DNA of 64,000 nucleotides. It comes from Chloranthus sessilifolius. Its lineage: Eukaryota > Streptophyta > Magnoliopsida > Chloranthales > Chloranthaceae. Of the stretch, positions 2,831 to 59,315 are shown in pieces (position 1 is the first letter of the stretch; each line of letters begins with the position of its first letter). The translations under genes were made by a program, and so were the position numbers. The notes under the pieces were generated by a model. The model worked only from the letters and a program-made list of their open reading frames with translations, was not told where the DNA came from and did no database searches. The stretch is taken from assembly GCA_021018995.1 (NCBI GenBank), contig CM037591.1:3850001-3914000 (forward strand). Reading direction: 5' to 3'.

Positions 2831-3150
2831 GTTGGCATGCATTGACCGTGTATTTCATCCTAATCTTTTACGTAATTGATCTTGTGATCATGGGCATACC
2901 CTCAAATGGTTAAATTTTTTATTCCATGTGGCAAACAACCCAAAAAGTGACTTTAAAATCATATGACCCACATTATGCTCAAACTTGATTTAGGGTCACT
3001 TTTTGACATGTGTGCCATGTGAAATAAAAAAATCAATTGTCTAATGATACTCTCATGGTCTCAAGATCATTGGTGTAAAAGAATATTGAGCCAACAACAA
3101 TCTCCATCGTCTAATTTATAGCGATCATTGCATTCAGATTGGAGGAGATG
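2831..3150. mobile_element. Foldback MITE, ACCGTCTGATGG family, copy 2
   Basis: It has the same mirrored arrangement as the copy at 2.16 kb: GGCATGCATTGACC near the left end and GATCATTGCATTC near the right. The paired GTGGCAAACAACCC and GACATGTGTGCCATG words are more diverged, so this is an older copy. Confidence 0.65.
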
Positions 3151-11689: not shown

Positions 11690-13340
11690 TGGGCCATCTG
11701 TGACGGCCTCATTAATCTGTGCGCCAGCATGAAGGCATGACGACCTTGGAACTGGGCACTTAGCTAGCAAGAAGGCAAGCGGACCTTGTAAGCTAGCCGT
11801 GTAGCACGCGTGGGTGCAGAGGCACGTGGCCATGCGATGCGTGCATGAGTCCTTGATGCATGATGCGACGGTGACCCGAACTAAGCTACAGTCTAGTATG
11901 GTGGTTAGACGCGTGAAGGGCTTAGAATGCAGTGCTCCGCGGTGAAGCACGCGACGTGGTGTCAAGAGGGCACGCGACGTCTTGGTGCCATAAGGCACGT
12001 AATGCGGTGCTCCGAGTATTAGCACGCGACGTGGTGCCAAGAGGGCACGCGACGTCTTGGTGCCATTAGGCACGTAATGCGGTGCTCCGCGTATGAGCAC
12101 GCGACGTGGTGCCAAGAGGGCACGCGACGTCTTGGTGCCATTAGGCACGTAGTGCGGTGCTCCGGGTTGGGGCACGCGACGGGGTGCCAAGAGGGAACGC
12201 GACGTCCGAGTGCTAAGGTACATGAAGTGGTGCCATGGTGGCACGCGATGTGGTGTCAAGAGGACACGCGACTTCTAGCTTGTATGGCAAGCGATGCGGT
12301 GCCAAGAGTGCATGTGATGCGGTGTAAAGAGGGCACGCGGCATCTGGGTGCAATGACGGACGCGACATGGTCGCGACACAGTGCGATGTTGGACATGAGG
12401 CCATGAGGGCCTCGTGACGTGGTCGCGATGCGGACGCGACACGGTCGCAAGAGACGCTGATGCGTGACCTCGCAAGCCATGTGGGCTTGGAGGATGGCAC
12501 TGGGTGCCACGGTCAGAGGATCGTGTGCCATGTTTAATGGCAAGACACCACCTTTGCAGGTGTGTGCCACGGGCAGGAGATCGTGTGCCATGGGGGTATG
12601 ACAAACCAATAGGTTTGAGGGTTTTCTGCTACTTTGCCTAAGTTGGTCATTAGACCATATATAGGGGAAAGGGAGCTGTGGAGCTATTCTCCCACACATG
12701 GGGCCTTGCGTTGCGGGACGAGCGCATGTGCTTTCTAGGTTAGGGGTGGGCCTAGAACATCGCTGCAGCAATGCGGCGCTGCGGCGATGCCATGTGTCAC
12801 CTGGGGTGAGGCTACCATGTGGCCCCGTGCCGGCGTCGCGGTGCACATGGGTCGGTGGCCTCACTGGGGCTCTCAAAGGCTATGTGGGGCCGATGGCGCA
12901 CACTAGGCGATGATGCTTGGTTTGGAGAGCATGAAGACATGCATGCTACTCCTAGTGTGCTGGTCGCGTAGACCACACACGTTGGTTGGCTTGGATGGCA
13001 TGAAGAGAGGCATGCCTTTGTCTAAAGCGAGGAACTAGTGCATTGCACAGGGTGAAGCTGGACAAGCCAAGTGGCACTGAGGTGCTGGCATGTGTGTCGC
13101 GAGTAGACATGATGCGTTGAGTGGGTTCGCCTCGAGTGAAGGCAACCACGATGCGGGAGTTCCCGTCCTCTAGGCGGGTGGTATCAGAGTGATGGTTGGA
13201 TATGAGGTCTCGCTGTGCGCGGTAGCGAGATGTTGCACGAGCGTGATAACCAATGTTAGGTTATGCCTTGTGACAAACTGGTATCTGAGTTAGGCTGGCC
13301 TCGCTGTAGCGGCAGCGAGGCGCCGCACGGGTGTCGAAAA
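11690..13340. repeat. GC-rich island with 75-bp tandem repeat
   Basis: Base composition jumps to GC-rich in an AT-rich region. From 11932 to about 12370 a 75-base unit recurs: GTGCTCCG starts at 11932, 12007, 12082 and 12157, followed by about two degenerate units beginning GTGCC. Each unit carries paired GCACGCGACGT words. Because 75 is a multiple of three, long frames open on both strands (up to 210 residues); these are repeat artefacts. TGGTATCAGAG at 13179-13189 resembles the initiator-tRNA primer-binding site of LTR elements, with a variant near 13281, so the island may be the non-coding part of an old LTR element lying in the gene's intron. Confidence 0.7.
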
Positions 13341-20767: not shown

Positions 20768-20955
20768 TGGCACACATTCCACAAAGTGATCGTGATCATG
20801 AGCGTTCCAATCAAATGGTCACTTTTGGAAATGTGTGCCATGTGGAATCAATATGTGACCGTCTAATAGGTGCGTCATGATCTCAAGATCTATTAGGAGG
20901 GATATTGGGATGAAAAACGATCCACATCATCCGAGTCAATGTAATCAACGATTTT
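20768..20955. mobile_element. Foldback MITE, ACCGTCTGATGG family, short copy
   Basis: It contains the family words GGCACACATTCCAC and GTGTGCCATGTGG in inverted orientation, then GTGACCGTCTAATAGGT and CTCAAGATC. It is shorter than the other copies. Confidence 0.6.
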
Positions 20956-21951: not shown

Positions 21952-23193
21952 TTAAGAGGGATAAGCCAATAACAAGTGAGCAGGAACACAAGATGAGTTT
22001 CTCCAAGCCTTTGAGTGCAACCTTAGTATATCTCTAGCCTTCTCCTTTGTCTTCCCCTCACAAGCTGCTTGGAGCACCAAACACAGCTTTGAAACAACCC
22101 CCACTTGCAACATCTCCTTTATAACACTCTGGGTAGCAGAGAACCTTGCAATGGAGGCCAAGATTCTAACCCCTCTCTCACTTGCTACATTTGAAACCCA
22201 AAGTATCTTCTTCGACACTACCGCCATCCCGGCACAGTGTCTCACTAGCTCAGCTCTCCCTTCTGCACACCCACATAGCTGATCCAACACCACTAGTACC
22301 ATCTCGATGATTCTCCGATCCGATGGCTCCAATAGAAGCTCGATCAAAACCCGAACGGCACCGGCATCGACAGCTTTGATACGGTTTCTCCCCAATGGAC
22401 ATAGCATGCCTAGCATCTTTAACACGGCTTTCGTCGCTTGGTGTGATATTTGATCTCGCAATAAATGAACAATCTCTACAAACAGTTCACCTCCCAAGCT
22501 AATCAGATTGACCGGATCGACCACCTCGAAGATCGAATTCAACAGCAAAGCCGCGAAAGCCCGCGATTGATAATTCTCTTGTTGCAAGACCAGTGTCAAG
22601 GATTCGATAAAATCTCTGTTTCTAGCGACAAGGTTGCGTAGGCCTTCGTCCGAAATCTGAAGATAATAGAGAATGCTAAGAGCTTCCTCACAAGCTGCTA
22701 TTGGCTCAAACCCACCATCAATTTCTTCCTCTACTGAAGTAGAATTAGTCTTTATAATAGAAACCAAGAAATCAATTGCACCTGAAGACTCTATGCATCT
22801 TTTGTTCCTTTCGCTCTCCAAAGCGATCAATTTGAGCTTTCTAAGGGATTTCATTTGCAAATGAGGGATTTTGGCGTCGTTGATGAATTTGATGATTTGG
22901 GTTTTGTCCATGGGTGGTTTCGGTGTAGGAATTCTTTCGATGCCGAAGGAAGCGTGTACGGTGCACCACGCTTGGATCAATCGACGGAGGGTGTGATTAG
23001 GAGTTAGATCAGCATCGGGTGGTAATGGTTGCTTCGTCATCGGGCATGCCTTGTTCTTGCCGGAGAACAGCCATCGCTCGATGCTATCGCGATCATATGT
23101 TATTCCGGTGCAAAGTGTGACGGGATCTCTCATGATTTGTAGAGAAATGGGGCAAATAAAGTAAGATGGGATTTCAATAGGACCATCCATCAT
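21952..23193 (-). CDS. PUB23: U-box E3 ubiquitin ligase, PUB22/23/24-like
   Basis: 413-residue intronless protein. Residues about 6-80 form a U-box: PSYFICPISLQIMRDPV, then GITYDRDSIERWL, CPMTKQ and LTPNHTLRRLIQAWC. This is the fold that binds an E2 and gives E3 ligase activity without zinc. The stretch GIERIPTPKPP right after it is typical of the PUB22/PUB23/PUB24 clade. The rest (about 100-400) is leucine-rich helical sequence of ARM-repeat type, used for substrate binding. Known clade members dampen immune signalling and drought responses by ubiquitinating partners such as exocyst or proteasome-lid subunits; that role is inferred here. Length fits the clade (about 410-450). The start has two adjacent ATGs. 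A TATA box and (GA)n tracts lie upstream. No damage is visible. The exact orthologue among the three cannot be fixed by eye. Confidence 0.96.
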   Translation of the reverse strand: MMDGPIEIPSYFICPISLQIMRDPVTLCTGITYDRDSIERWLFSGKNKACPMTKQPLPPDADLTPNHTLRRLIQAWCTVHASFGIERIPTPKPPMDKTQIIKFINDAKIPHLQMKSLRKLKLIALESERNKRCIESSGAIDFLVSIIKTNSTSVEEEIDGGFEPIAACEEALSILYYLQISDEGLRNLVARNRDFIESLTLVLQQENYQSRAFAALLLNSIFEVVDPVNLISLGGELFVEIVHLLRDQISHQATKAVLKMLGMLCPLGRNRIKAVDAGAVRVLIELLLEPSDRRIIEMVLVVLDQLCGCAEGRAELVRHCAGMAVVSKKILWVSNVASERGVRILASIARFSATQSVIKEMLQVGVVSKLCLVLQAACEGKTKEKARDILRLHSKAWRNSSCVPAHLLLAYPS

Positions 23194-23415
23194 ACAAATG
23201 AATATGATAAAAGATCAACTAGTCTTTTTTCCTTGGATAAAATTGAAGAGAACTAATTATTTCAAAACTAAAATTGAGTCCTAGTGGAAGAAAATCCAGG
23301 AAGAGCTAGAGCTGAAGATGGTTAAATTGGCCTGAAATTAGAAGCCGCTGGAATCTGATGACTGAAGAGGGAGAGCCTCTAAGTGTTTGAGGAATAAAGA
23401 AAAGAATGGTTTGGT

Positions 23416-25181: not shown

Positions 25182-28100
25182 TTTTTTTTTTTTTAATTAA
25201 TAGGGGTTGATGGGTCCCCCACCCTTTATTTAAAAAAAGGAGAAGATTATAGACGAATTGAGTTACAAATCGAGTTACAAATCAAGTATTCTCGAATGTG
25301 AGAGTGAAGGGAAAAAGGAATAAAAGATGAATTTGTCCATCGAAGAACTGAGGATGAGTCTTGTCCGATCTTTGTTAACAAATCTGCACTGAAGTTCATC
25401 TCTCTCCATATGTGTTTTAATGTTATTGAGTGAAAAGAGAGAGTTAGAAGCTTGATTCTCCGAGTAGTGAAGATGTAAGGCCATAGCGTTTTGTACTATC
25501 CATTTATACAGTTGATCGCAACTAGAGAGTCTGACTCGACTTCCAGATTAGTGTAACTTTGATCAATAGCAAATTGCAACCCATATTGAAACGCCTGGAG
25601 TTCAGCATGAGTAATATCATAACATCTCTCAATGGATCCATGGAAACTGGCTTCATATTGTCCTTGAGTGTTTCTGAAGAGTCCTCCTATGAAAAAATTT
25701 CCATCTCTGCAAGATGCATCTGCATTTAATTTTAGGAAAGGGGAGGGATCCAATGACAGATTCGTGGAGTGGGAGGAGGATCCCTTGAAATTCGCCAAGT
25801 GAAGCTAATTGGGGATATGAATTGATCTTCCATTGGCTGGGGAAGCATAGTGATGTTAACATCATTAACAATATTTAGAAGAACTGTTCTTTTATGATTT
25901 GATTTATTTTCGAAAATCTTTGAATTTCTTTCCTGCCATAGACGCCAAATGGAAGTAGCAAAGACAAGCTTAATTAGAGTGGCATACTTTGAGTTACCTT
26001 TACAATTTCCAATGTAGAAGGATAGCTCTTCATCAAGGGAGCCAATAGAGTTTTTCCTTAAATCGAGTCGCCTGCATAGAAATCTTCATATCCAACTGGA
26101 ATATGAGCATCTAAAAAAGACATGATTGTGATCTTCCGAATTGGACCAACAAACTACACATCTCGAAGGAATATAGAAGCCTCTTTTAATGAGATTATCC
26201 AAAGTAAGCAGTTAATTTTGAATAGCTAACCAAGTACAAAAAAGATACTTAGGAATATACTTAGAGTGCCAGAGGAATTTGTACCAAGAGACCTTCTCAT
26301 AGGAGTGTTTGAAGCAAGACAAAGCTGATTTAGAAGCGAATTCACCTCAAGGTTCAAGTTTCCATATATAAGCATCTTCATCATAAATATTGATGGGAGT
26401 AGGATGCGAACGAATTCGTGCCCATGCCTCTTCCATTTTTCGTGTTGTGGGGTTTGGTAGGTTCCATTCTCCATTAACAATGACATCACTAACATGACTA
26501 CTCTCATCAATTCCAGATTGTATCATCATTCTGCGCCCGTAGTCTTTAATAAGAGTACCATTTTCAAGCCAATGATCATGTCAGAAATTTGTATTGGCAC
26601 CATTGCCAATGATGATCCGAATTTATGATTTTATTGTATCTCTAACCCTCATAATCGCTCTCCAAGCCCATGAGAAATTATTAGGGAGATTACAGTTCCA
26701 GATATTTGTAGGATGAACATATCTAGCAATGCACCAAGTGGACCAAAGTGATTTGTTGGAGACCAAATTTCAGAACAGTTTTGAAAGACTAGCATTATTC
26801 CAATCAGTAACACGCCTAATTCCGAGGCCCCCTTCATCCTTGGGTTTGCAAATTTTCTTCCAACTGATAGGATGCATTGATTGGCCAAGAGAAGGGCCCC
26901 TCCAAAGAAATCTTGAGAAAATTGTTTCCATTGTTACTGATGATCTTCCTTGAGAGATAGAAAGAACCAGACCAATATATTTGGAAGCTATTAAGGACTA
27001 ATTTAATAAGTTTCAATCTCCCAGCATAAGAGAGAAGATTTCCTTTCCAGCTTTCAAGCCGGCCATGGATTTTTTCAAGAAAAGGATTGCAGAGATTGTA
27101 TGTGAGTTGACCTGAGTAAAGGGGCAGCCTCAAATACTTGATCGAAAGCTTTCCTTCAGAAAATCTTAAGGCATCTTTCAGAGCAGAGTTGGTATTGCAA
27201 GCAGCACTGCATAGAATAATACTTTTGGAATCATTCACCTTCAAACTTGAAATAAGATGGAAACGGTCTAGTATATCTCTTAGTTCTTTAGCTGAATCAA
27301 CATCTTCATTCATCATGATAAATAAATTGTCAACAAAGATGAGATGGGAGACGATCGGGCAATCAGCCATTTGAAGGGGTTTGATAGAATCTTGAGAAAT
27401 TTTTTCTTCAAGTGAGCACGTGAATCCTTCCATTATGAGAGTGAAAAGCAGCAGCGATAATGGATCTCCCTGTCTTATACCACAAGAACTTGCAAAATAT
27501 TCATGAGGAGAACCATTAATAAGGATTGAAAACATAGGAGTTGTGATGCATTCACTAATCCATTGAATCCAAGTTTCATCAAACCCCAATTATTGGAGAA
27601 TAGAAAGAACATACTAGTCCCACGGCACCTTATCAAAGGCCTTTTGAAGATCAATTTTAATGCAGAAAGCCTTTGGTTCAGAATTAAGGTGGAAATTTCG
27701 AACAAGGTCATGGGCCAGAAGAACAAGGTCATGGGCCAGAATTAAGGTGAAACCAGATTGATTCCAACTAATAAGAGAAGGGGGGACATTTGCAAGGAGA
27801 TTCGATAAAATCTTTGTGATAACTATATAAAGAAAGTTACACAAAGCAATGGGTCTGAATTTATCCATCGAATTGGCGCCTCTTTCTTTAGGAATCAGCT
27901 TGAGAAAAGTGGCATTTAGAGATTTAGGCAGTTTCTTCTTACGGAAAAAATAGCGTACCATTTTAATAGTATCTTGCCCAATGATATTTCAAAAGATCTA
28001 AAAGAATTCCGCGGAGAAGCCGTCCGGGCCAGAAGCTTTATTCTTAGGTGAATTAAAGATAACACTTTTGATTTCTTCATCAGAGAATCTTGCGATAAAA

Positions 28101-30951: not shown

Positions 30952-31024
30952 ATGGATCAAAATTTCGGCCAAAATGTTTCGTGTATGCTCGAAATCGAAA
31001 TTCAACCCGAAATTTTGATCTTTG
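30952..31024. mobile_element. CCGAAATTTCGG-word mini-element, 73 bases
   Basis: ATGGATCAAAATTTCGG at the left faces CCGAAATTTTGATCTTTG at the right. Flanking nine-base strings GATTGGGCC and CATTAGGCT agree at six positions, a possible worn 9-bp duplication. It abuts the CACTA-like copy. Confidence 0.6.
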
Positions 31025-36839: not shown

Positions 36840-37160
36840 AAACCATTGAATGCTTCAGATCAGATAATGAAGATCATGTTTCACCCCGATCTTTCATACA
36901 ATAGATTTTTAAATCATGGCACACCTATCAGACGATCATTTTTTTATTCCATATGCCACAGATCTCCAAAAAATGGCCCTAAAATCACATTTGAACATGA
37001 TGTGTGCCATATGATTGAAGATTCATTTTTTAGGGATCTCTGACACATGGGATAATAAACTGACTGCCAGATAGTTGCGATATGATCTCAAGATCCATTG
37101 TGTGGAAGATCTGGGTGAAAAAAGGTCTCCATCATCTAATCTGAAGCAATCAACGATTTT
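36840..37160. mobile_element. Foldback MITE, ACCGTCTGATGG family, copy 4
   Basis: GCACACCTATCAGACGATC and TTTTTATTCCATATG on the left mirror GGGATCTCTGACACATGGG and GACTGCCAGATAG on the right. It ends GTCTCCATCATCTAATC, as in other copies. Confidence 0.6.
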
Positions 37161-45135: not shown

Positions 45136-45300
45136 GCAAGGATTAAAATTTCAACCGAAATTTTGATCCAAATTTGTATAAAACCCAAAATTTTTACCGA
45201 AATTTCAGTCAAATTTTCAGTTTTCGGCCGAAATTTCGGTTCAAATTTTCAATTTCAGTCAAGTCCGAAACTGAAAATTTATCCAAAATTTTGATCCTTG
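45136..45300. mobile_element. CCGAAATTTCGG-word element F1
   Basis: 165 bases from GCAAGGATTAAAATTTC to AAATTTTGATCCTTG. The interior is entirely variants of CCGAAATTTCGG and CAAATTTTCAG. Flanking TATATATGT and CATCTGTGT agree at 6 of 9 positions. Confidence 0.7.
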
Positions 45301-46624: not shown

Positions 46625-47533
46625 TTAAGGCTTAGAAAATAAAACTTGGTAATTCGGTAGATCAAAGGCGTTCCAATTACCGTTTAAGAGATTACTGTGA
46701 TTGAAAGCAAAATGATCAACGGTAACCGATTCAAACTCTTGCGGTTGCGGCACAACGACCGGAGGAGCGGGCCATAAAATGTCTCGATTGATCGCTTGGC
46801 TTGGTGATCCTTGCATTCCGCTGTATGCACTTTGATCTGCACTAGTAATTTGTATAATTCTATCTTGTTCCTTCTGATTCAAGTAGAATTGGTCGATAAA
46901 TTGGGCGTCGGAGACCGGATCAAACGGTTGCTGGAACTCACCCATCTGGTGTTCATGTGAGAATTGGGTAGGAAATTGGTAACTCGGGTCCAATGCATTC
47001 GAAAAGTCGAAAGACGGATCGAATTCGCTAGGCAATTCGGCTGCAGTAAGTCCTTGATCCGAATCCGGCCGTTGTTGATTCAAGAATTTTGAGTAGAGGA
47101 GTGCTAGATCGATAGCCGGAGCGTCTGATTTCGACGGAGGCGTGGAATTCTCATCCGATCGGAATGAATTCCCAAGTGGGACTTCAGGGAAAAGGCTAGA
47201 ACGGTCCGAATCGGACGGTGTACAGCCATAACTTGAACTTCCAGAGGCAATTTGATCCGTCGAAACTCGTATCAACTTCCCCCTTCGACTTTTCCGGCAC
47301 CCGCCTCCAACCGGCACGTTGCGCAATGAGCCCCCTTTAGTCCAATACCTTCTGCACCCTTTGCAGAAATAGCGAGGCTGTGTGAGGCTGTAGTTGTTGT
47401 AGTAACAAAATTTGGTGTTGGGAGAATCACAACGAGGGCAATTTGGGGATGAATCAACGGCTCCCTTCCATCTTCTATCGATGATCAACGGTTTAGGAGG
47501 GCATGGAAGCATGTGGTTAGTAGATGAAAACAT
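46625..47533 (-). CDS. Dof-type zinc-finger transcription factor
   Basis: 302-residue intronless protein. Residues 30-84 are a complete Dof domain: CPRC (Cys32, Cys35), 21 residues, then CKGC (Cys57, Cys60), with [16 protein letters not shown] between and [21 protein letters not shown] after. Dof proteins bind AAAG cores in DNA through this single zinc finger and act in the nucleus. The basic stretch just after it (CRKSRRGK) could serve nuclear import. The remainder is serine-, proline- and glutamine-rich, as in activation regions of the family. The ATG sits in a fair context (AAGATG). A G-box lies about 300 bases upstream. Dof members control vascular growth, seed, light and carbon responses; which role applies here cannot be told. 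No fault is visible. Confidence 0.96.
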
Positions 47534-47828
47534 CTTAACGCCCTATAAAATTTGTGTCCAATCAACACACAAACAAAACCCAGTATCTAATAGTTAGTGA
47601 AACTTGCGTTTTTGATAAAATTACAGAAGAAAAAACCCTAGAAAAGTTGATACTTGAAAGTTGTAAGGAAGAAGAAGGTTAAGAGGTTTTAGAATAAAAG
47701 CAAGTTTATGTATTTTGGGGTGGTTGATACGATTAGCCGTGGGCGGCAGTTTAAGAACCGTTAGAATGGACGGGAAATTATTAAATGTTTCGCATCCGTA
47801 GGCGAGTGGGTAGTGTCGGCTAGTGTGG

Positions 47829-55358: not shown

Positions 55359-55575
55359 ATAATTCAAAATTTTGGCCAATAATTCAAATTATCAGTTAAA
55401 ATATTTCGGTTTCAATCCCCACCAAAACAAAACTTTGAACTGAAATTTCGATAAAAAAAGTATGAAGGGAAAATTTTCTGCCAAAATTTAAAATTTTGGT
55501 CAAAATTTTAATTCAATTTTTTTATTTCGGTCATATCCAAAACAAAAAACAAAATTGCTATTTTGATCCTTTGGT
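55359..55575. repeat. CAAAATTTTGG/TTTCGG-word element F4
   Basis: ATTCAAAATTTTGGCC on the left and GCTATTTTGATCC on the right enclose GAAATTTCG, TATTTCGG and CAAAATTT words. It is worn, with no clear duplication. Confidence 0.5.
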
Positions 55576-56340: not shown

Positions 56341-56435
56341 ATATATATAAGCCAATAGCAATATGGTCCCTCTGCTTGGCAGATATATATTAAAATTATT
56401 TTTTAAAAAAGTTCATTTAGTTGGAAAAAAAATAA

Positions 56436-59098
56436 GGGTTTTTTGGCATATACCCCCCCCCCCCTCCGATATGCCGATATTGTATCAAACCCCCTGAGTT
56501 ATTGGTATTTATTCTGCAACCCTTACTTTTGTATTTATGTTTCATATACCCCCCTTGCCTAGCTATGAGTTTATGGACGGAAGGATATTTTGCCCTTAAT
56601 AAAATCAATATTTTAAAAATATCACCATTTTAAAAGGCTCTTCATTTATTTATATTTACAAGTCATGCAATTAAAGTTTACTATGGTTCTAAAAGGCCCT
56701 TCATTCACCTTTATTTAAAAGTCATATCATTACAGTTTACCACCATTTTAAAAGGAGTACCTTTAAATCCACCCACAAAATTTTTGAGTTCAACCACGTT
56801 GATACACATCGACTACAAAAGGCCCTTCATTCACTTTTATTTACAAATCATGTCATTATAAAAGGCCCTTCATTTATTTATATTTACAAGTCATGCCATT
56901 AAAGTTTACTACGGTTCTAAAAGGCCCTTCGTTCACCTTTATTTACAAGTCATGTCATTATAGTTTACCACCATTTTAAAAGGAGTACCTTTAAATCCAC
57001 CCACAAAATTTTTGAGTTCACCTACGCTGATACACATCGACTGCAAAAGGCCCTTCATTCACCTTTATTTACAAGTCATGTCATTATAGTTAACCACCAT
57101 TTTAAAAGGAGTACCTTTAAATCCACCCACAAAATTTTTGAGTTCACCCACGCTGATACACATCGACTGCATTGAATCAGACGACGGTGATTGTTTATCG
57201 TTCCAATTTTTAGATCATAGGTGTACCATCAAACGGTTTATTTTTTATTTGTTGTGGTACACACCCATAAAAGTGACCTTAAAATCAATTTTAAGCGTAC
57301 ACCTGATGTTAAGGTCACTTTTCTAAGATGTGTGCCACGTGAAATAAAACATTGACCGTCTGATGGTACACTGATAATCTCAAGATCCATCGTGTGAAAT
57401 ATTGGGAGGATAAATGATTTCCATCGTTCGATTCAATTCAATCAGCGTGTTTCAAAGTGGGTGAACTCAAAGATTCGATGGGTGGATTTAAAGGTACTCC
57501 TCTAAAAGGCCCTTCATTCACCCATCAGATTCAAGATATATCAAATGAGTGATTCCCCCATTAAAGCATGCCAACGTTTGAACGAATACTTAACCAATGA
57601 AGGATTTGTGGTACACGATGTAATTATTCTTATAAAGAAAACTTTCAATCTATCCACTCAAAATACCAGACCCTCCAATTTGCTATATGATTCAAGATCC
57701 ATCAGATGAAAGATCGATTGGTATTGGCCAATACTTACCGATATAATTTTTTTTCTACATGTTTTTAAAAAAAGATCGATTTGGTATTAGTAGTACCGTA
57801 TCCATATCGGCCGATATGTATCGGCGCAAGATGGACCAATACCTGATACCGATACTAATACTCCAAGTGCAGGTCGGATTAGCCAAACCTTGGTGCTTCT
57901 TGTGTCTGGTCTTGTATTGCGTACAAGACTGGTTCCCAACTTTCAGGATTAACCAAACTTTGATGCTTCTTGTATTTGGTTTGGTTAATACTACCTACAC
58001 TCAGGGTATCAATATCGGTATTAGGTATTGGTCTATCTTACACTGATACATATCTGTTGATATGGATACAGTACCACTAATACAAAATCGGTCTTTTTTT
58101 TAAACATGTAGAAAAAAATTTATATCGGTAACTATCAGCCAATATCAATCAGTCTTTCATCTGATATGTCTTGAATCCTATAGCAAATTGGAGGATCGGG
58201 TATTTTGAGTGGATAGGTTGAAGGTTTTCTTTACAAGAATAATTGCATCATTTGCCACAAATTATCCATTTGTTGAGTATTCGTTCAAACGTTGACTTGC
58301 TTTAATGGGGGAATCACCCATCTGATGGGTCTTGAATATGATAGGTGAATGAAAGGCCTTTTAGAAGAGTACTCTTAAATCCACCCACCGAATCTTTGAG
58401 TTCACCCACACTGAAACACGTTGATTGAATTGAATTGAATCGAATGATAGAAAACATTTATCCTCCCAATATTTCACATGATGGATCTTGAGATTATCGG
58501 CATATCATCAGACGGTCAGTGCTTTATTTCACATGACACAAATCTCAGAACAATGACCTTAACATCACGTGCACGCTTAAAATTGATTTTAAGGTCACTT
58601 TTATGGGTGTGTATTACATGAAATAAAAAATCGACCGTCTGATGGTACACTCATGATCTAAAGATCGATCTCATGAAAGATTGGGACGATAAACAATCTC
58701 CATCGTCTGATTCAATGTAGTTGATGTGTTTCAGCGTAGGTGAACTCAAAAATTTTGTGGATGGATTTAAAGGTACTCCTTTTAGAATGGTGGTAAACTA
58801 TAATGACATGACTTGTAAATAAAGGTAAATGAAGAGCCTTTTAGAATGATAGTAAACTTTAATGGCATGACTTGTAAATATAGATGAATGAATGGCCTTT
58901 TAGAATGGTGGTATTTTTAGAATATTGATTTTATTAAGGGCAAAATAGGCCTTCCGTCCATAAACTCATCACTAGTTAATGGCAAGGGGGATATATGAAA
59001 CGGAAATACAAAAGTAAGGGGTTGCACAATAAAAACCCATAACTCAGGGGTTTGATGCAATATCGGCTTATCTCTTAGGGGGTATATGCCAAAAACCC
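56436..59098. mobile_element. 2.66-kb palindromic foldback element
   Basis: It begins GGGTTTTTTGGCATATACC and ends GGTATATGCCAAAAACCC. The flanks AAAAAATAA and AAAAAACAA match at 8 of 9. The two arms mirror each other through most of their length, including a copy of the ACCGTCTGATGG MITE family in each arm (about 57135-57465 and 58395-58735). The left arm carries an extra 330 bases or so from tandem copies of a unit with AAAGGAGTACCTTTAAATCC. The centre lies near 57.92 kb (GTCTTGTA...TACAAGAC) and has TATCGG words. The long inverted arms and 9-bp flanks suggest a Mutator-like or FoldBack element. No gene inside. Confidence 0.8.
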
Positions 59099-59315
59099 AA
59101 AAAACAATATTAATCGAGGATATTTTCAGTATTAATCTTATATATATTGGCTGATGTGGGCCTATATAGTATAAATATCAACCGATGGTATATACCGTAC
59201 TATATTTGCCCTTGATATTGACTCGGGTCAGGCCAAAACCGATACATATCGGCTAATATGTATCAGCCTCAGCTAATATTTAGAACCATAAAACCACATG
59301 ATTTGATGGATTCGA
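59099..59315. other. Decayed CGATAC-word sequence
   Basis: ACCGATACATATCGGC and TAATATGTATCAGCC near 59238-59270 show a trace of the same word class. No gene. Confidence 0.35.

Follow-up and report, generated by a model that had tools for sequence, protein, structure and literature searches.

The palindrome at positions 56427-59107 of the analysed DNA carries the same MITE-like module at mirrored places in its two arms, which raises the question of what kind of sequence it represents and how both arms came to contain the module. The window, the whole stretch of 64,000 nucleotides that was analysed, corresponds to G000:C8:3850001-3914000 of an assembly of 2.17 Gb in 32 contigs. Pfam searches of the window identified two minus-strand genes that mark the DNA as that of a plant, one for a U-box/ARM repeat protein (21955-23211) and one for a Dof zinc-finger protein (46628-47542); the palindrome is located ~9 kb upstream of the reading frame of the latter. 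The minus strand also contains a reverse transcriptase fragment (Pfam RVT_1, 26837-27589), probably derived from a LINE, and a G+C-rich tandem array with 3.7 copies of a 75-bp unit is found at 11926-12206, the rest of the window being A+T-rich.

The 2.7-kb palindrome reported in the first-pass annotation is real, and its limits are exact. The element proper encompasses 2663 bp (56436-59098) and, together with a 9-bp duplication on each side, fills the interval 56427-59107; the annotated limits took in both flanking duplications (56427-56435 and 59099-59107), which had been passed over. A repeat search of the window revealed inverted arms nested around 57890-57977, with lengths of 346, 232 and 237 nt and a complementarity of 87-91%, and a global alignment of the left and right arms of the window copy gave 990 identical bases among 1119 aligned (88.5%). 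Proceeding inward, each arm consists of a terminal inverted repeat (TIR) of ~190 bp, 59-bp units, a MITE-like module of ~410-420 bp, an inner arm of 255 bp and a 126-bp hairpin stem, after which an 88-bp loop joins the two arms; this per-arm order is common to the copies of the family. As in foldback elements, most of the sequence is inverted repeat, the loop accounting for 88 of the 2663 bp. The features are as follows.

56427-56435, no strand: left 9-bp target-site duplication, AAAAAATAA, identical to the right one at 8 of 9 positions
56436-56626, plus strand: left TIR, starting with GGGTTTTTTGGCATATACC; aligns with the right TIR (BLAST part 56440-56626)
56641-57100, plus strand: left-arm 59-bp units, enlarged by 228-bp and 126-bp tandem duplications that are absent from the other 29 core copies
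57101-57507, plus strand: left MITE-like module, which is an imperfect inverted repeat in its own right
57508-57762, plus strand: left inner arm, delimited from locus L039
57764-57889, plus strand: left arm of the central hairpin
57890-57977, plus strand: 88-bp loop, which sets the orientation of the element; 71 genome matches to its consensus 24-mer
57978-58103, minus strand: right arm of the central hairpin
58104-58358, minus strand: right inner arm
58359-58778, minus strand: right MITE-like module
58778-58895, minus strand: right-arm 59-bp units, in the two copies that are usual for the family
58907-59098, minus strand: right TIR, terminating at GGGTTTTTGGCATATACC on the minus strand
59099-59107, no strand: right 9-bp target-site duplication, AAAAAACAA, identical to the left one at 8 of 9 positions

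The gain of tandem units in the left arm, also noticed in the first-pass annotation, corresponds to extra 228- and 126-bp copies that occur in this arm only. The duplications take in the start of the MITE-like module as well as the units, and the window copy is the only one of the 30 core copies that displays the expansion.

A search of the 2.17-Gb genome with the loop consensus 24-mer, allowing up to 3 mismatches, returned 71 matches, and the control returned none. Two pairs of these matches lie 70 bp apart, with one loop per pair, so that the count corresponds to ~69 places, or about 70 genome copies of the type found in the window (type A). The common 18-nt terminus, GGGTTTTTTGCATATACC, has 580 exact matches in the genome and none for the reversed control; the left end of the window copy is a variant form that has an additional G. 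The 12-mer GGCATATACCCC, proposed earlier as the end word of the family, turned out to be weak and unspecific (111 genome matches versus 62 for its reversed control). The outer 206-bp piece of the element gave 2373 first-look candidates, of which 40 were scored, and the inner 860 bp gave 2517, with most of the 40 scored ones matching on both strands, as expected for a palindrome. The order of parts is the same in the 30 core copies (window copy included), truncations aside, and their common state is two 59-bp units per arm.

Loci fetched with the outer piece include elements of other types that keep the TIR, the units and the module, and differ in the interior; types A, B and C therefore have the TIR and outer arms in common and are distinguished by their centres. 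Type B is represented among the loci read by 11 distinct elements (after merging L012 with L037 and L013 with L036), whose arms stop at module position ~310 and enclose a 450-bp centre of their own. The 5 distinct type C elements among the loci read contain a centre of ~800 bp that is 90-91% alike across copies; one of their two modules is complete, and the other breaks off at position 147. Shorter deletions are represented by L018 and L032. Part of the type C centre (approximately positions 211-344) matches the window at 55440-55571, 45211-45300 and 30976-31024 with 76-78% identity, which implies that this centre contains another dispersed repeat. MITEs fall below about 600-800 bp, and the type A elements with both ends called, at 2207-2663 bp, are too large as whole elements to be assigned to that class.

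The 74 exact termini listed on C1 lie mainly towards its ends (44 in the first 64 Mb and 25 from 160 to 199 Mb, compared with 5 between 64 and 160 Mb), which indicates that the family clusters in chromosome arms. Locus L004 (G000:C1:32536536-32539547) is a compound insertion with two family elements back to back and several stacked MITE-like modules. Two exact termini face each other 0.33 kb apart at G000:C2:96249249-96249579, possibly delimiting a MITE-sized member of the family.

Flanking sequences were compared after scanning 60 loci, many of them overlapping, which yielded 14 distinct elements with both ends called. Agreement between left and right flanks in these 14 elements peaks at 9 bp (0.833 for own flanks versus 0.467 for cross-paired ones), a length within the 9-11 bp of Mutator-like elements (MULEs). 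The 9-bp flanks are at least 8/9 alike in 10 of the 14 elements, 5 of them perfectly, versus 4 of 182 cross pairs; one of these good matches, that of L048, carries little information because it falls within a TA repeat. The other 4 elements remain below 8/9 in the fixed frame, and inspection by eye showed that two of them, L040 and L059, carry identical 8-bp words one base out of register.

The combination of 9-bp duplications, long TIRs and common ends with varied centres fits non-autonomous Mutator-like elements, and the long TIR is family-wide, being shared with the outer arms by types A, B and C. No long reading frame was found in the centres of type B (longest stop-to-stop stretches of 47-70 aa in five centres) or type C (70-92 aa in five centres). 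The genome contains many MULE domains, and 150 of 5285 first-look candidates were scored. A weak comparison by eye between 100 listed termini, out of the 580, and the 18 scored MULE domains that fall on C1 or in the first 136 Mb of C2 found no pair separated by 10 kb or less. Taken together, the palindrome is very probably an old, inactive, non-coding copy of a non-autonomous, long-TIR foldback Mutator-like transposon, copied whole from a founder that was already mirrored.

The first-pass annotation had further proposed that a transcript of the palindrome would fold into a long hairpin and could seed small RNAs. The predicted fold agrees with the first part, since 1015 of its 1105 base pairs join one arm to the other, and its minimum free energy is -1558 kcal/mol; two other stretches of equal length from the window gave -671 and -642 kcal/mol. 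An extension of the second part, in which this hairpin locus would be under selection for producing small RNAs with a silencing effect on the family, analogous to Mu killer in maize, appears improbable, although a transcript is predicted to form the hairpin and the mutation spectrum has some features in its favour. The inner arms deviate from the majority sequence at 7.6% of positions, and transitions make up 75% of the differences; per site, C-to-T (0.116) and G-to-A (0.111) changes dominate over A-to-G (0.015) and T-to-C (0.009). This raised C-to-T change would reflect the decay of methylated cytosine. Decay at C/G sites is high in every context, CHH included, the transition rates across all parts being 0.114-0.182 in CG, 0.105-0.221 in CHG and 0.054-0.106 in CHH (repeat copies only, with L036, L037, L014, L019 and L028 dropped because overlapping loci had presented them twice).

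If hairpin RNA had driven the decay, the arms would be expected to exceed the unpaired centres. In type A, the CHH rates of the TIR (0.106), the inner arm (0.100) and the hairpin (0.094) are somewhat above that of the loop (0.063, over only 88 bp), and the MITE-like module is hardly higher (0.066). By contrast, the type B arms (0.054 and 0.057) and their non-palindromic centre (0.055) are alike. The C-to-T signal is thus mixed and weak, and speaks neither for nor against hairpin small RNAs. Selection of this particular locus is further disfavoured because the window copy is one of ~70 and is set apart by its tandem units alone, and Rfam detected no family at threshold anywhere in the window.

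The likeness of the arms could also be maintained by gene conversion within each copy, which the first-pass annotation had offered as one of two explanations for the mirrored modules. We compared the arms of the core copies after orienting them by the loop. Left and right arms are 0.868 identical within copies and 0.865 between copies, with values of 0.871 for left-left and 0.877 for right-right comparisons, and the left and right consensus sequences are 98.7% identical. The identity of own partners is slightly above that of re-paired arms (0.8678 against a mean of 0.8649), an excess of only 0.003 that was reached in 297 of 5000 shuffles. In 51 of 60 cases an arm is closest to a same-side arm from another copy, in 9 to an opposite-side arm from another copy and in none to its own partner; when sides were swapped within copies in 5000 trials, the same-side count averaged 30 and never exceeded 46. 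In a maximum-likelihood tree a single branch divides the left arms from the right ones, and none of 500 shuffles scored as low; the branch is short, with moderate support (86/87). Two close pairs, L054/L067 and L059/L062, recur among the left and among the right arms, as expected if whole palindromes were copied.

The distinction between left and right weakens outward. Without the part next to the loop, the nearest neighbour is the same side, the opposite side or the own partner in 41, 18 and 1 cases; the corresponding numbers are 33, 19 and 3 for the MITE-like module and 17, 21 and 2 for the TIR. The fixed left/right differences near the loop comprise 4 columns. The absence of a left/right distinction in the outer TIRs could reflect old exchange, and this and the small excess in own-partner identity are the points in favour of conversion. 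Nevertheless, own partners are nearest in 0/60 cases near the loop, 3/55 in the module and 2/40 in the TIR, and the tree sets left arms apart from right ones. Conversion within copies is unsupported by the identities, the re-pairing shuffles, the nearest neighbours and the tree, and we consider it very unlikely as the cause of arm likeness. No exchange between the arms is detectable after the spread of the copies; the arm identities, the tree and the few differences beside the loop indicate that the founder arms were nearly identical and that their later decay was independent.

Although the arms resemble one segment mirrored about a small loop, as they would after a local inverted duplication of a MITE-bearing segment without transposition, such a locus-specific origin is refuted by ~70 genome copies of the same palindrome type with the same loop, and with the common termini and 9-bp duplications it retains hardly any probability.

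The same MITE-like module does lie mirrored in both arms of the window copy (57101-57507 and 58359-58778), as first reported, and it is at least partly present in both arms in 28 of the 30 core copies (window copy included). L053 retains only ~100 bp of the module on one side. In L060 and L068 one arm lacks the module, and because the units and TIR of that arm are also gone, these are truncations and not empty arms. When modules are divided into nested and scattered ones at 80% identity to the right-arm module of the window copy, a division that makes the comparison partly circular, nested modules are 0.886 alike within a locus (41 pairs) and 0.882 between loci (4230 pairs), whereas nested and scattered modules are 0.718 alike (1297 pairs) and scattered ones 0.693 among themselves (89 pairs). 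The 14 scattered rows include two decayed nested modules (L044 and L066) and two rows that represent one duplicated flank (L011 and L027), all of which were kept in the averages. In the window copy, the two nested modules are 0.882 alike and 0.635-0.759 alike to three scattered relatives. Scattered relatives of ~64-76% likeness occur in the window at 2161-2486, 2849-3116, 20817-20950 and 36859-37135. The loci L011 (C17:306940-310142) and L027 (C4:24639189-24642391) have the same scattered MITE relative equally far outside the element, pointing to either a segmental duplication or a wrongly placed contig.

These identities imply that the module was already in the arms before the family spread. 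The first-pass alternative between a module present early and arms kept alike by conversion is consequently supported in its first part, given the 28 of 30 copies and the far greater likeness among nested modules, and its second part is unsupported by the identities within and between copies (0.868 and 0.865). A divergence between the arms larger than that between independent MITE copies, as separate insertions would leave, is not observed (0.886 and 0.882 nested, 0.718 to scattered). Two independent insertions at mirrored places, for which only the abundance of scattered relatives near the copies could be cited, are excluded by the contrast between nested and scattered identities and by the same placement in both arms of 28 of 30 core copies, and their probability is negligible.

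The locus thus belongs to a multi-copy family with common ends, 9-bp duplications, a common anatomy and independently decaying arms. We envisage a founder whose mirrored arms were nearly identical and already included the MITE-like module on both sides. It would have been copied whole to ~70 places as type A, leaving 9-bp target duplications, and its mobilisation was presumably provided by a Mutator-like transposase from another element. Both arms of each copy would then have decayed independently, chiefly by C-to-T change, for which methylation is the putative cause. The left arm of the window copy may later have acquired its 228- and 126-bp tandem units, probably through slippage or unequal exchange.

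The three types might, tentatively, preserve earlier stages of this history. Mirrored arm lengths are roughly 0.46, 0.62 and 1.1 kb in types C, B and A, and progressively longer arms on common outer arms would mean, in a stepwise reading, that the inverted repeats grew inward. Types C, B and A could then be frozen steps of foldback growth, in which sequence captured by one arm, the MITE-like module among it, was repeatedly copied to the other during transposition and each longer form subsequently spread as a unit; we regard this as a possible but rather doubtful scenario. The palindrome itself is largely ordinary, and its family illustrates how mirror-image elements age. Some 70 near-full palindromes and sister types of differing arm length provide material for testing foldback origin and arm exchange. 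For annotation, they serve as a warning that mirrored MITEs in a palindrome are not necessarily separate insertions.

No published report of the family was found, and it may still carry a name in repeat libraries; a literature search for its terminal words likewise found no paper, such sequences being rarely printed in text. In the accessible parts of PMC4486113, MuTAnT of Medicago truncatula is presented as a foldback Mutator-like family, 90% of which measures 200-300 bp, and FARE of Arabidopsis is a foldback form described through the same paper and PMC3169594. As far as these accounts extend, both resemble the present family in being non-autonomous, almost wholly inverted repeat and modular, with G-rich ends and 9-bp duplications. 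The elements described here are larger than MuTAnT (2.2-2.7 kb, with arms of ~1.1-1.5 kb), and the MuTAnT mask GGGGTTTGCTAGAACA in PMC4486113 differs from our terminus. Compared with the available descriptions of MuTAnT and FARE, the targets here are AT-rich but not strictly (TA)n, each arm contains a MITE-like module, and no autonomous member was found in the comparison of MULE domains and termini on C1 and part of C2.

Mu killer of maize, as portrayed in the available portion of PMC3440606, is likewise a Mutator-related inverted repeat, and a hairpin RNA is possible in both cases. Mu killer includes sequence of the transposase gene and has demonstrated silencing activity, whereas the element described here is non-coding.

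Tm1, a Mutator/Foldback family of root-knot nematodes (PMC3169594, in the sections available), shares composite TIRs, tandem units unequal in number between the ends, 9-bp duplications and several centres within common TIRs. It differs in its units of 13-15 bp (59 bp here), its asymmetric terminal motifs and its known transposase-bearing member. According to the excerpts available of Ferguson and Jiang (PMC3310237), MULEs have 9-11-bp duplications and TIRs of typically 100-500 bp, a range that the arms here exceed. Plant MULEs with duplicated or extended TIRs in that source resemble the window copy in the tandem gain inside one TIR, but they duplicate whole TIRs, whereas the gain here consists of internal units and the start of the MITE-like module. 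A proposal cited in the accessible text of PMC3169594 holds that foldback families arise through gradual TIR expansion, and acquired sequence can enter the extended TIRs of plant MULEs, as stated in the same excerpts of PMC3310237; as these sources present them, both processes fit the presence of a MITE-like module in mirrored arms.
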